This document shows positions 20,779-56,651 of a stretch of 64,000 bases of DNA, piece by piece (positions within the stretch are counted from its first letter, which is position 1; every line of letters starts with the position of its first letter). The notes below the pieces were generated by a model, which was given only the letters and a program-made list of their open reading frames with translations, did not search any database and was not told the DNA's origin. Position numbers and translations under genes: made by a program. Origin of the DNA: Rhodopirellula europaea 6C (GTDB lineage: Bacteria; Planctomycetota; Planctomycetia; Pirellulales; Pirellulaceae); the NCBI RefSeq assembly GCF_000338295.1, contig NZ_ANMO01000154.1, forward strand, positions 1-64,000, in the 5' to 3' direction.

Positions 20779-23184
20779 GTGGCCCGTCTCGGTGACGTCG
20801 CCCAGTTCGAAGCGTTCTTTCACGCGAGGATGGAAGCACGGGTGAATTCGACCGCAACGACCGAAAATCAACGAAGCCTGACTCGCAGTTTGGTCAATCC
20901 ACTCGCGGTTGCCGTGGTGATGATCGTGCTGATCATCAGTGGGGTGATCGCATTTCACAACATCCGTGAATTGCAGGAAACGCGACTCAAAGTTGGTTTG
21001 ACGCTGAAAGTTTTGGCGTCTTTGGCGGAGATCGAGGGCGCCGTGATGGATGCCGAACGTGGGCAACGGGACTACTTGATCACGGGCGATCAGCGGCATT
21101 TGGAACCTTTCGAGGAAGCTGTCAAACGCACGACGCAGAGCCTTGATCAATTCGAGAAGCTGACTCAAGACCATGCGGTCCAGCGAGCCAAGTTCGACTT
21201 ACTTCGGGACAATGTCGAAGATCGAATCACGCATCTCAATGCGGTGTTGGATATTCGAGCCGAAGAAGGTCCCGAAGCTGCTCGCGACGCCGTGATCCTG
21301 AATTTAGATCAGAACTTGATGGGCAAGATCGACGATCTGGCGATCTCGATGCGAAAGATCGAAGAGGATCTGTTGGTTGTCCGCGAAGCAATGGCGACGC
21401 GAGCTTATCGCAGCGGGATTGTGACCTCGGTTTCGTCCACGTTGATCGGTCTGATTCTCGTTGGCAGCGTGCTGTATCTGCTGGAACGCAATCGCCGGAA
21501 GGCGGAACGGGATGCGTTGATGTTGAACGCGACTCGGGAGCGAGTTCAGTTGGCGTTGGATGCGGCGGAAATGGGAGCTTGGAATATCGACCCCGAGACG
21601 AGCGCCCTTCAAACCGACGAACGTTATCGCCGCATTCATGGTGTCGAACAGAAGGAAATGACGTTCGAGGATTCGTTGAAACGGATTCACCCGGATGATC
21701 GAGCGAGGGTTCGGCAAGCGGTGCGAGCATCGATGTCACCGTTGGACCCCTCGCCTTATTCGGTTGAATACCGTGTCGTTCACCGGGACGGTTCTATCCG
21801 TTGGGTATCGAGCAAGGGGATCGCTCGGGCTAGCCGACGCCGCGGCAAAGCGGTGTTGACCAGTTTCGATGGAACGGTCGCGGACGTGACCGAACGCAAA
21901 CGCCAAGAGGAACGTTTGCAACGAAGCGAGCAAATCGCGTTGGCGGCCAATCAATCCAAGAGCGAGTTCTTGGCCAACATGAGCCATGAGATTCGGACTC
22001 CCATGGCGGCCATTCTCGGTTACGCGGATGTTTTGCTTGGTCACTTGGAAGACCCCGACAATCGCAATTGCGTGATGATCATCAAACGCAACGGTGAGCA
22101 CTTGTTGTCGTTGATCAACGATATTCTCGACTTGTCTCGCATCGAGGCTGGCAAGCTCAGCGTGGACGCGGAGTCGGTTCCGTTGCCGCGATTGGTGGGC
22201 GACATCCAGTCTTTGATGCAGGTCCGTGCGGACGAGAAAAATGTCGACTTCCAAGTCGAGTTTGAAGGTCGCGTTCCACAATCGATCGAGACCGATCCAA
22301 CTCGCCTGCGTCAAGTGTTGATCAACTTGATTGGCAACGCGATCAAGTTCACTGACGAAGGCAAGGTGGGATTGAAGGTTCGCTTCATGAAAGGGGCCGA
22401 TCCTCCGGTCGTCGAGTTCTCGATTGTCGACACCGGGATCGGTATCAGCAAAGAACAGCAGGACCGATTGTTCAAACCGTTTTCGCAAGGCGATGCGTCG
22501 GTGACGCGAAAATATGGTGGCAGTGGCTTGGGGCTGGCTATCAGTCAACGATTGATCGAGATGATGGACGGCGAGATGTCGCTGGAAAGCGAGCTCGGCG
22601 AAGGGTCAACGTTCTTTGTCCGGTTGCCGGTTCATTCGGTCGAAGGCATCGAGCTGGTGACACCCGATTTGGTCAAACAACCATCGCGTCCGGAGGAGTT
22701 GCTCGCGGAAACTCCGAAATTGGACTGCCGCGTTTTGGTGGTCGATGATCGCAGAGATGTTCGCCACATCAGTCAACACTTCCTCGAAAAAGCGGGAGCG
22801 AAAGTTGACACGGCAGAAGATGGTCAGCAAGGCATGGACGCTGCCGTTCAAGCTCGTGACTCGGGGCATCCATACGACTTGATCGTGATGGACATGCAGA
22901 TGCCCGTCGTCGATGGGCTGCAAGCGACCGCGCTTCTGCGTTCGGCGGGGATTGATTGGCCGATCATTGCGCTCACCGCCGACGCGATGAAAGGTGACCG
23001 CGATCGGTGCCTCAACGGCGGGTGCGACGACTATCTGTCCAAACCCATCGACCACGTCAAATTGGTTAGCATGGTCGCCAACTACACCCAAGAAATGGAT
23101 GTGAGCGAGTTGGTTGAACGTCGCTATTTGCGAGCCAATCAGTTGCAACAAAAGATCGAACGCGAAGGCCGGGCACGATCTTGA
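20779..23184 (+). CDS. Hybrid sensor histidine kinase (CHASE3-PAS-HisKA-HATPase-REC)
   Basis: This membrane kinase senses an external or membrane signal and passes phosphate to its own receiver. Residues 42-60 and 213-235 are membrane helices flanking a CHASE3 domain (ERGQRDYLITGD). A PAS fold spans about 255-375. HisKA carries His403 in MSHEIRTPM. The ATPase has NLIGNAIKF, DTGIGIS and GGSGLGLAIS. A REC domain (about 651-770) has acids in VVDD, phosphoacceptor Asp705 in LIVMDMQMP and Lys755 in LSKPI. No Hpt domain is present, so a separate phosphotransfer protein is needed. The start may be 51 bases later (ATG 20830). No output partner lies beside it. Confidence 0.93.
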   Translation: MARLGDVAQFEAFFHARMEARVNSTATTENQRSLTRSLVNPLAVAVVMIVLIISGVIAFHNIRELQETRLKVGLTLKVLASLAEIEGAVMDAERGQRDYLITGDQRHLEPFEEAVKRTTQSLDQFEKLTQDHAVQRAKFDLLRDNVEDRITHLNAVLDIRAEEGPEAARDAVILNLDQNLMGKIDDLAISMRKIEEDLLVVREAMATRAYRSGIVTSVSSTLIGLILVGSVLYLLERNRRKAERDALMLNATRERVQLALDAAEMGAWNIDPETSALQTDERYRRIHGVEQKEMTFEDSLKRIHPDDRARVRQAVRASMSPLDPSPYSVEYRVVHRDGSIRWVSSKGIARASRRRGKAVLTSFDGTVADVTERKRQEERLQRSEQIALAANQSKSEFLANMSHEIRTPMAAILGYADVLLGHLEDPDNRNCVMIIKRNGEHLLSLINDILDLSRIEAGKLSVDAESVPLPRLVGDIQSLMQVRADEKNVDFQVEFEGRVPQSIETDPTRLRQVLINLIGNAIKFTDEGKVGLKVRFMKGADPPVVEFSIVDTGIGISKEQQDRLFKPFSQGDASVTRKYGGSGLGLAISQRLIEMMDGEMSLESELGEGSTFFVRLPVHSVEGIELVTPDLVKQPSRPEELLAETPKLDCRVLVVDDRRDVRHISQHFLEKAGAKVDTAEDGQQGMDAAVQARDSGHPYDLIVMDMQMPVVDGLQATALLRSAGIDWPIIALTADAMKGDRDRCLNGGCDDYLSKPIDHVKLVSMVANYTQEMDVSELVERRYLRANQLQQKIEREGRARS

Positions 23185-54687: not shown

Positions 54688-55488
54688 CTAGCAGGCCAAT
54701 GGTTTGATGCTGTTGTCATCGGATTGGATGTACTGAAGCAGGCCGTCTGTATTGAGCGGCTTTGCAAACCAGCGATCGAACCCGTTTGGACCTTCCGCGA
54801 TTCCATAGTCGCAGGGAGGCTTTCCGCTGGTCGCGACAATGCGAATGTTCTTTGACGCTTCGCATTGTCGCAATTGTCGGATCGTTGAAGCACCGTCACC
54901 GTCCGCCATTTGCATATCCAGCAGGACGTAGTCAGGTGATTCGTTGGTGTCCAGATAGCTGATCGCGGCATTGCCACTTGCAACGCAATCGACAACGCAG
55001 CCACGCATGGAGAGGATGCCAGCCAGCAATTCTCGTTGGTCGGGGTCGTCTTCGACCAGCAGCAGTTTGACCGAGCTTTGAAGGTTTGGGTTTTCCATCT
55101 GTGCGTCGATGGCTTCAGAACGTTTTCCGAAGTGTTGCTCGATACAATCGAGTTGATGAATCACCTTCGAGAACGTTCGATCTGCCGCCTCTTTCAGCCC
55201 CGCATTCATTTGCTGGCGGTAGAGCTGGAGCCCCAAGTTCAGCGTGTTCAAATGATTACGAAGCTGGTGGACTTCACGCTGCACATTCCCAAAAGCCTGC
55301 TCAAAACTTGGGAAATCGATAGCTTTTTCAACTGCCCCGTTGAATAGCTCTTTTCGAAGGATGCGAATCTCGGGCGGCGCGTCGATTCCGATCGTGGCGG
55401 TTCTTGCAGAAGACCGCGTGACATTGACCGTGATTCCCAAGCCTGGAAATACGATGGCTTCGCCCGGTTTACGTGATAGTAACAACAT
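54688..55488 (-). CDS. CsrA-REC fusion: RNA-binding CsrA domain with phosphoreceiver
   Basis: One chain joins an RNA-binding regulator and a two-component receiver. Residues 1-49 match CsrA: MLLLSRKPGE start, Leu4 and Arg6, GIDAPPEIRILR with Arg45, which together make the RNA site. Residues 62-125 form a helical hairpin with LRNHLN (His79), like a phosphotransfer or dimer helix pair. Residues 139-262 are a complete REC domain: Asp147/Asp148, phosphoacceptor Asp191 in VLLDMQM, Thr220/Ser221 and Lys243 in FAKP. The ATG at 55488 is supported by GGAG eight bases upstream; the ATG at 55527 would extend CsrA unnaturally. Phosphorylation may switch mRNA binding; this is inference. Confidence 0.93.
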   Translation of the reverse strand: MLLLSRKPGEAIVFPGLGITVNVTRSSARTATIGIDAPPEIRILRKELFNGAVEKAIDFPSFEQAFGNVQREVHQLRNHLNTLNLGLQLYRQQMNAGLKEAADRTFSKVIHQLDCIEQHFGKRSEAIDAQMENPNLQSSVKLLLVEDDPDQRELLAGILSMRGCVVDCVASGNAAISYLDTNESPDYVLLDMQMADGDGASTIRQLRQCEASKNIRIVATSGKPPCDYGIAEGPNGFDRWFAKPLNTDGLLQYIQSDDNSIKPLAC

Positions 55489-55895
55489 GTCTGGAACTCC
55501 GTTTCGTTGCGTGAGCATCGACGGCACAAGTCGACCCTCAAAAACCTCACGAATCCCGCCGGATTACGTCAACCTTGCATGAAGATTCGCGAGAAGAGTT
55601 GCCCCATTCCATTGACAGTTTTTGATTCCGATCCTGAAATCACTGCTACCTCTGCATGGGAGTAGATTCATTTACTCCTGTAGAGTCAACGGAGATTTGA
55701 AAAATGTTCTGGTAGAGCGGGGGACTCCATAGGACTGCAAAACGCCGTGCTGATGCCGGAGTTTCTGGAAACTTGTTCAGTGCCAGTGGCTGGGCTCGCC
55801 AGTCCTAGAGAGCGACGACTTTGGATCGCCGCTCAGTTGAAGTTTCTGGTCTTCATCACCAAACACGTTGAAGGGAATAAATACACGGGCCCCAT
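55489..55895 (-). promoter_or_regulatory. Leader region of the CsrA-REC gene
   Basis: This 407-base stretch lies between the sigma-factor stop and the CsrA-REC start, both on the minus strand. The Shine-Dalgarno GGAG (plus-strand 55497-55500) is part of ACGGA, which fits the ANGGA core of CsrA sites, so self-repression is plausible. Another GGGATT lies further upstream. A weak 6-bp hairpin occurs at 55659-55678. No independent protein is seen. Confidence 0.4.
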
Positions 55896-56651
55896 TCAGA
55901 CCGCTTGCGCGATCAGGGTGGAATCACCGATGGAGTCATCCGACCGTTCACGAGCCGATGGCATCGGCAAGACGGCGGGGGATTCGTCGGCACTGTTGTC
56001 CGCCGAATCCCCAAACGCCATTTCGTCCTGCAGTGTTTCTGCCAATCGGCGTCGTGCGGTGTGCAGACGCCGCTTGATCGTTCCGACTGGCGCGTCGAAC
56101 GCATCGCTCATCTCGATCAACGATTGTCCATCGAGGTAAAACGCGTTGAGCGTTTGACGATCCAAGCTTCCCAATCGTGCGATGCCACTTCGAACCGCCG
56201 CGGCTTGCTCGCGATCTTGAGCCACGTTGTCAGGCGTGATGTCATCCACGCAAGTTGCTTCCAGGGTTTCTGGGTCGCACGCGGTGGCAGTTCGTTGTCG
56301 GCTGAATCGGTTGATTGCCATTCGGTGAACGATCTGACGTAACCATCCGCCGAACGCTTCTGGCACGCGAAGTTGATCCAGCTTTTGCATCGCTTGGATG
56401 AAAACGTCTTGTGTCAATTCTTCGGCTTCGTGCACGTTGCGAACTCGGCTGATTGCCAATGCGACAATGACAGGACGATAGCGTTCGAACAAATCACCGA
56501 ATGCCAATTGGTCTCCGCCTTGGGCGGCAATCACCAATTGGGCAACCGTTTGACCGGAAGCGGATGCGGAAGTCGAGTTGCGAACGATTGCGTTGCCGTC
56601 GCTAGGCGGCACGGTGGTCGTGAAATCAGGGGTGATCTTCATGGTGTCCAT
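55896..56651 (-). CDS. RNA polymerase sigma factor of the ECF type
   Basis: This sigma factor directs RNA polymerase to specific promoters. Region 2 runs from YRPVIVALAIS through EELTQDVFIQAMQKL and WLRQIVHRMAINRF (about residues 63-120). Region 4 is LDRQTLNAFYLDGQSLIEMSDAFDAPVGTIKRRLHTARRRL. A 50-residue acidic, Ser/Asp-rich tail after region 4 is extra. No anti-sigma gene is adjacent, so control is not evident. The start may be ATG 56651 or 56642. Its 407-base distance from the CsrA-REC gene argues against a simple two-gene operon. Confidence 0.92.
   Translation of the reverse strand: MDTMKITPDFTTTVPPSDGNAIVRNSTSASASGQTVAQLVIAAQGGDQLAFGDLFERYRPVIVALAISRVRNVHEAEELTQDVFIQAMQKLDQLRVPEAFGGWLRQIVHRMAINRFSRQRTATACDPETLEATCVDDITPDNVAQDREQAAAVRSGIARLGSLDRQTLNAFYLDGQSLIEMSDAFDAPVGTIKRRLHTARRRLAETLQDEMAFGDSADNSADESPAVLPMPSARERSDDSIGDSTLIAQAV

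Follow-up and report, generated by a model that had tools for sequence, protein, structure and literature searches.

Two-component control of the RNA-binding regulator CsrA can be indirect: according to a passage of PMC4682653, BarA-UvrY switches on the CsrB and CsrC RNAs, which sequester CsrA. In the FliW-CsrA switch, CsrA is controlled at the protein level. Other response regulators join a REC domain to an RNA-binding domain, as in the ANTAR proteins AmiR, NasR and PdtaR, and CsrA itself was listed among such RNA-binding outputs in 2007, in a passage of PMC2222644 that gives the CsrA class a single phrase and mentions no hairpin. In hybrid histidine kinases, HisKA, HATPase and REC domains follow one another in one chain. 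Spo0B-type phosphotransferases have a DHp-type helical hairpin with a His and an Asn at +4, no kinase activity, and a pseudo-ATPase domain. A passage of PMC12471899 tabulates E. coli CsrA as an orphan response regulator. Among the matches listed by a literature search, from which subscription papers mostly fell outside, there was no study of CsrA-REC, its DHp-like hairpin or its kinase linkage. E. coli CsrA presumably lacks a receiver, and the tabulated entry may echo the REC-CsrA class.

The protein considered here is encoded in Rhodopirellula europaea 6C, a genome of 7.19 Mb in 273 contigs, within the window (the whole stretch of 64,000 nucleotides that was analysed, from contig 154; Table 1). 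It shares with CsrA, RsmA and RsmE (PF02599) the domain, the fold and the RNA-contact residues, but adds a DHp-like hairpin and a REC domain, and its CsrA part falls far below the cut-off of the NCBIfam csrA equivalog TIGR00202 (31.1 against 70.1 bits). As in the RNA-binding response regulators, insofar as the passage of PMC2222644 describes them, a receiver is joined to an RNA-binding domain, although in this protein the output is N-terminal and the DHp-like hairpin lies between the two. The succession of a DHp-like H-box and a REC within one chain also recalls the hybrid histidine kinases, but Pfam matched no HATPase domain in the 266 residues, and CsrA occupies the place of the sensor. The His and Asn +4 of the hairpin recall those of the Spo0B type, and SPOB_a is among the Pfam families matched at E up to 1 by hairpins of the family, whereas in the window protein CsrA and a REC are part of the same chain as the hairpin, with no pseudo-ATPase domain. 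Control of CsrA would act on the protein, as with FliW, but would be covalent and in cis. The original prediction of an undescribed system is not supported, as PMC2222644 had already named CsrA as an output of response regulators: bare REC-CsrA is described in that one phrase. Among the best 25 NCBIfam rows for each of three members, no such architecture was named and no cut-off was passed.

Table 1. Positions of the features of the fused gene and its upstream neighbour within the window.
Feature	Coordinates	Strand	Basis or conservation
CsrA-DHp-like-REC gene, 266 aa	54688..55488	(-)	translation, Pfam, family of 86, dN/dS 0.13
CsrA domain, residues 1-50 (Leu4, Arg6, Arg45)	55339..55488	(-)	Pfam PF02599, Foldseek
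DHp-like helical hairpin (helices predicted at 59-95 and 99-131)	55096..55314	(-)	AlphaFold2, Pfam, hhalign
His74, aligned with HisKA phospho-acceptor His	55267..55269	(-)	71/86; HisKA profile position 11
Asn78 (His+4)	55255..55257	(-)	Asn in 65/71 His-bearing members
REC domain, residues 139-258	54715..55074	(-)	Pfam PF00072, Foldseek
Asp191, predicted phosphorylation site	54916..54918	(-)	Asp in 81/86
Ser221, receiver's conserved Ser/Thr	54826..54828	(-)	Ser/Thr in 78/86
Lys243, receiver's conserved Lys	54760..54762	(-)	Lys in 77/86
GAA[ACGGAG]TTC at Shine-Dalgarno position, possible CsrA site	55494..55505	(-)	sequence
ECF-type sigma factor gene	55896-56648	(-)	upstream of window gene, same strand

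The gene is a single unbroken minus-strand frame, from an ATG at 55488 to a stop ending at 54688. The original prediction of a full-length CsrA with Leu4, Arg6 and Arg45, and of a complete REC with Asp191, Thr220/Ser221 and Lys243, is borne out by Pfam, with PF02599 covering residues 1-50 (E 3.7e-13, 49.7 bits, above the cut-off of 27) and PF00072 covering residues 143-254 (E 8.1e-17, 61.8 bits, above the cut-off of 30.2). Leu4, Arg6 and Arg44/45, which we take to be the RNA-contact residues of CsrA, are present, as is the complete receiver signature (E146/D147, D191, S221, K243), in which the Ser/Thr position corresponds to column 221 of the family alignment (56 Ser and 22 Thr among 86 members). 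The nearest ortholog found (L010, genome G004) is 88% identical, with the same frame and domain order. Between the two, dN/dS is 0.060/0.451, or 0.13, overall, 0.11 in the hairpin and 0.10 in REC; the CsrA part has a ratio of 0.28 from few synonymous changes (dS only 0.14), and amino-acid identity is lowest in the linker, residues 50-70 (14/21). Hence the gene is genuine and under purifying selection, given its intact frame, both domains, the matching ortholog and the low dN/dS. There was no sign of the frameshift between the domains that the original prediction had named as its possible undoing, and a frameshift or other artefact is ruled out by the shared frame in orthologs together with the overall ratio. 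An AlphaFold2 model of the whole chain had a mean pLDDT of 84.8 and a pTM of 0.56, so the relative placement of domains in it is unreliable; the best 50 Foldseek rows for this model were all receiver-containing structures, such as 2iyn (PhoB) and 3i42. With a model of the 121 residues of CsrA and hairpin, the best 15 rows were CsrA, RsmA or RsmE (E 0.0095 and up), including 2jpp and 5z38 at a target TM of 0.72-0.79.

On balance, we favour the reading that this CsrA-DHp-REC chain, without an ATPase domain, is probably a phosphorelay node in which a His-Asp pair sets RNA binding. The reading draws on the domain order, the similarity of the hairpin to DHp domains, the pattern of His and REC co-loss, and the linkage to kinases in relatives. 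Firstly, CsrA would dimerise and bind GGA-containing mRNA leaders. Secondly, the DHp-type hairpin would form a four-helix bundle in the dimer, offering a docking site for receivers. Thirdly, REC would be charged in trans by a separate (hybrid) sensor kinase, in many relatives the product of the next-door gene. Fourthly, His74 and Asp191 would act as a His-Asp pair, in phosphotransfer or in dephosphorylation. How REC is docked on the bundle would then alter the geometry of the CsrA dimer, and through it the affinity for RNA, in one direction or the other.

The family was assembled as 86 distinct proteins covering CsrA and the hairpin, from all loci gathered; the collecting pattern demanded Arg6, Ala37 and Pro38, so the counts of these residues hold by construction. 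The structural set (A4) took 70 of the 86. A profile of CsrA plus hairpin (A1) was built from 20 members, excluding L006 and two members whose hairpins are without His (L027, L030); in the absence of these two, searches with A1 favour His-bearing members, with no bias to any state of REC. Across the order, A1 matched at least 54 of 296 genomes at E <= 1e-18 (G295 in the CsrA part only), and across the phylum at least 12 of 294 at E <= 1e-16 (G605 in CsrA only), with at most 15 candidates per genome scored in both searches, meaning more members are possible. The 12 phylum matches listed all belong to the own or the same family, order or class. A scan of 84,980 species genomes with two receiver-derived patterns, which picks up close relatives only, returned 64 loci. 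Fourteen of these aligned from residue 1 at E 3e-36 or better, and they are titled as Planctomycetes or their families, bar one unassigned 'bacterium isolate RI_54'; of the remaining loci, one aligned from residue 11, one from residue 91 and the others from residue 114 or later. The predicted union of CsrA and REC in one protein is thus conserved across a family, some of whose members adjoin sensor kinases.

The R. europaea 6C genome has eight CsrA-domain matches. Two are full CsrA-hairpin-REC proteins, the window gene and a paralog (L008); five are CsrA proteins (L001-L005) without a receiver visible by eye; and in L006 CsrA accompanies a REC match below its cut-off (20.1 against 30.2 bits). 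One of the five, L003 on contig C273, is a CsrA of 189 residues in total with a long, low-complexity-looking C-terminal tail. A single fliW match lies upstream of a stand-alone csrA (C236:3295-4324; L258, L002). To judge from the sequence, the fused CsrA proteins come in addition to the classical FliW-CsrA switch. The L006 gene (L153:5576-6184, minus strand, on C120 of about 72 kb) encodes CsrA and a degenerate REC without the hairpin motif, and its end overlaps a gene for a HAMP-SpoIIE phosphatase (L153:4107-5624). This overlap suggests a different, partner-switching link.

Variants of the architecture were also seen in other genomes. A small frame at L188 (2619-2978, plus) and another at L189 (minus) each encode a degenerate CsrA-like N-terminus and a His-bearing hairpin, with no REC; kinase- and REC-like sequence also lies at 880-2082 of L188, so that the hairpin looks like a phosphotransfer part in its own right. 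At L187 (477-1532, plus), a hairpin-REC protein without CsrA is encoded upstream of a CsrA-hairpin-REC gene on the same contig. Four loci (L109, L111, L131, L137) carry two CsrA-hairpin-REC genes each, beside CheB-CheR frames; both copies at L137 have the His, and one is without R-N at the usual place.

The original prediction had noted a helical hairpin with LRNHLN. The hairpin is present, but it is more than a link, having a DHp-like profile and a conserved His of the phospho-acceptor type that had been overlooked, His74, three residues before the 'RN'. AlphaFold2 predicts two long antiparallel helices, with block pLDDT of 84-96 over residues 71-120. The motif H74-x-x-R-N-x-L-N resembles the H-box of histidine kinases, kinases of the same genome having, for example, HELRNPL at that position, and its conserved core is H-x-x-R-N-x-L. 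All 20 sequences of the A1 alignment have H74, R77 and L80, and 19 have N78; among the 71 His-bearing members of the whole family, 68 have Arg at +3 and 68 have Leu at +6. The residue after the His is acidic in 21 of the 71. In HisKA kinases, an acidic residue after the His serves kinase activity, and an Asn at +4 serves phosphatase activity. Hence, with Asn +4 retained without the acidic +1, a phosphatase or transfer role would fit the hairpin better than that of an autokinase.

The profile used for the hairpin (A3) comprised 59 of the 69 hairpins with His and an intact REC; the ten dropped were mostly near copies, and the omission of L142, L144 and L137, which have no R-N at the usual place, gives a sharper H-box. 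Among Pfam-A families, HisKA was matched most often by these hairpins (18/59 at E up to 1, best 5.4e-6), followed by SPOB_a (7/59 at E up to 1, best 6.1e-4), which ties with a TPR model. Ten hairpins chosen for their kinase-like H-boxes scored at most 20.1 bits, below the HisKA gathering score of 26.9; six match HisKA, in 6/6 cases with the His on profile position 11, which is His in 29 of 30 HisKA domains read from the own genome, the exception (L061) being a sequence translated out of frame. For the window hairpin alone, Pfam gave no HisKA match at E up to 1, and FliJ (E 0.015) ranked first. Searched against its own genome, the hairpin profile returned, beyond two self matches, one match under E 0.1 (E 6e-4), the DHp of a PAS-HisKA-HATPase kinase on C24. 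Across 100 genomes of the taxonomic family, 52 rows reached E 1e-4; of 13 weaker rows inspected, seven are kinase DHp domains (E 1.0e-6 to 4.9e-5), named as kinases from sequence, with a Pfam scan for the C24 relative in the own genome only. Among the remaining six were two hairpin proteins with a degenerate CsrA and one hairpin-REC protein; the others were CsrA-hairpin proteins, some of them with REC and some without.

Profile-profile comparison by hhalign placed His on His in an alignment of the hairpin profile with 24 own-genome HisKA domains (A6, from 30 retrieved out of 45 matched), at 96.7% and a score of 44.4; column shuffles (n=100) reached no more than 15.0, and reversal gave 9.7. A rotation control (scores 29.8-44.3) was uninformative because the local alignment retains the H-box. 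Masking the His alone still left 93%. With eight H-box columns masked, the score against the general HisKA set was 12.7, within the range of the shuffles (maximum 14.0, n=50), and that against the closest kinases was 18.0, just above the maximum of 14.3 in 100 shuffles. The DHp similarity of the hairpin is thus carried mainly by the H-box. Foldseek returned no significant DHp for the CsrA and hairpin model: after the 15 CsrA rows nothing fell under E 1, and one histidine kinase stood at E 6.2, amid noise. The 30 rows from a PDB sequence search with the hairpin began at E 0.051 and were dominated by TPR proteins and designed bundles.

Wide flanks were available for 59 of the 86 members, some of these flanks stopping at contig ends, and kinase genes in them were identified by similarity, at E <= 1e-8, to kinase segments from the same loci. 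A kinase lies within 4.5 kb of 33/45 members with His and an intact REC, of the one with His and three of four REC features (1/1), of 3/5 with an intact REC and no His, and of 0/8 with a degenerate REC. Within 300 bp, the corresponding counts are 22/45, 1/1, 0/5 and 0/8. The expectation, from 45 HisKA matches in 7.19 Mb, is about 0.06 kinases per locus, a comparison with the density of one genome. CheB-CheR frames occur at 24 of the 45 His-bearing, REC-intact loci, and no kinase lies within 4.5 kb at 12 of them. The paralog L008 is 89 bp from a gene with CheB, CheR, PAS, HisKA, HATPase and REC domains by Pfam, the sole CheB-CheR frame scanned; other neighbouring kinases bear DUF4118, and the one scanned had DUF4118, HisKA, HATPase and REC.

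Neither the window gene nor its nearest ortholog (L010/L149) has a kinase within 4.5 kb. The window gene is flanked by genes for an ECF-type sigma factor and an esterase, an order maintained around the ortholog at L149, and 1.6 kb from a more distant ortholog (L150, genome G001) a CheB-CheR kinase is encoded on the opposite strand. The hybrid kinase at 20779, which the original prediction had put forward as partner, has its HisKA domain at 21955-22152, some 33 kb off, and no link to it was found.

The leader of the window gene has ACGGA at 55502-55498, 9 nt ahead of the ATG, and the sequence GAA/GAG[ACGGAR]TTC is common to this gene, L010, L011 and L012. An ANGGA lies within 25 nt of the start in 71/86 family genes against 12/138 neighbouring ORFs, a control biased low by starts that were picked mechanically. 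An ANGGAN hexaloop closed by at least 3 pairs was found at 22/71, against 6.5% of 3,665 background sites. With looser loops, stems of at least 3 pairs form in 51/78 family leaders against 42% of background GGA sites, and stems of at least 4 pairs in 17/78 against 19%; of 142 other ORFs with a GGA placed at the Shine-Dalgarno position, 60 reach at least 3 pairs and 36 at least 4. In the predicted minimum-energy fold of the window leader, the hexaloop is not formed (shuffle z -0.4). Hence the original suggestion of autoregulation through this ACGGA stands as to the motif, which the gene has and which is enriched across the family; the support from RNA structure is mixed, and autoregulation of the window gene via its leader GGA may be called a reasonable guess.

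Receivers were scored on four features, the acidic pair, the Asp, the Ser/Thr and the Lys. His74 is found in 69 of 74 members with all four, in 2/2 with three, and in 0/10 with at most two; a Fisher test of the 4/4 class against all others, uncorrected for the tree, gives 4.9e-8. A tree that leaves out the scored columns needs at least 7 changes for His and 6 for REC (4/4 or not), and the ten members with a degenerate REC, all without His, fall on it by reading in about five places (L134/L135; L122; L030/L133; L130/L138/L136/L140; L027). Five independent pairs could be drawn on supported branches, of which on average 3.1 change the same way, 0.1 the opposite way and 1.7 show no difference; the sign test over them has a median p of 0.25, and with fewer than six such pairs 0.05 is out of reach. 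Hence the Fisher test is not proof that His and REC are lost together, since the tree leaves few independent events; the pattern is consistent with correlated evolution, which is not proven by these sequences.

This pattern bears most directly on the strongest alternative, a plain response regulator: whether or not it descends from a DHp domain, the hairpin would serve only as a spacer for dimerisation, His74 would play no chemical part, and phosphorylation of REC alone would gate CsrA. REC and CsrA are intact in the window gene, as this would require; an intact REC occurs without His in five members, three of which (L109, L111, L131) share their stretch with a His-bearing copy; the scarcity of an acidic +1 means that autokinase chemistry is not retained; and the resemblance to kinases lies mostly within the H-box. 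Nevertheless, a spacer without chemistry sits poorly with a His74 that is so common beside intact receivers and absent from all ten degenerate ones, or with the L188 protein, which retains H-x-x-R-N near kinase and REC sequence despite its degenerate CsrA and missing REC. We regard the plain response regulator as unlikely, though it is the alternative to be taken most seriously.

Much less probable is a reverse flow, in which RNA is the input and the occupancy of CsrA sets His-Asp traffic, with the output passing through REC or a neighbouring kinase. CsrA does precede the DHp-like hairpin in the chain, the place of sensor domains in kinases, and the hairpin-REC and hairpin-only proteins exist as possible partners, but direction is not indicated by the data here, no output partner was found, and CsrA with Arg45 persists in members stripped of receiver features. 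We give equally little credence to a two-way scheme, in which CsrA would have been grafted onto a gutted hybrid kinase, with DHp and REC kept and the ATPase lost, linking phosphorelay and mRNA in both directions. If that were true, kinases, often of the CheB-CheR type in relatives, would set RNA binding via the His-Asp pair, while bound RNA, as a ligand in the sensor position, would alter the flow of phosphate. Least probable of all is that CsrA serves only for dimerisation, without binding RNA, in a phosphate sink or kinase scaffold: some CsrA positions do vary (residue 7 is Gly in 15/86) and the equivalog score is low, but Arg45 is found in 86/86 members, even those without His and REC features, Leu4 is found in 80/86, and GGA-bearing leaders are enriched in the family.

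If the phosphorelay node, with RNA binding set by His74 and Asp191, is the correct reading, then phosphate would connect a kinase to an RNA-binding regulator without an intermediary RNA. The family also constitutes a natural test of a DHp-type domain without its ATPase, as Asn +4 is kept in most His-bearing hairpins and the acidic +1 in fewer than a third. Translation in these bacteria may thus be under the direct control of sensor kinases.
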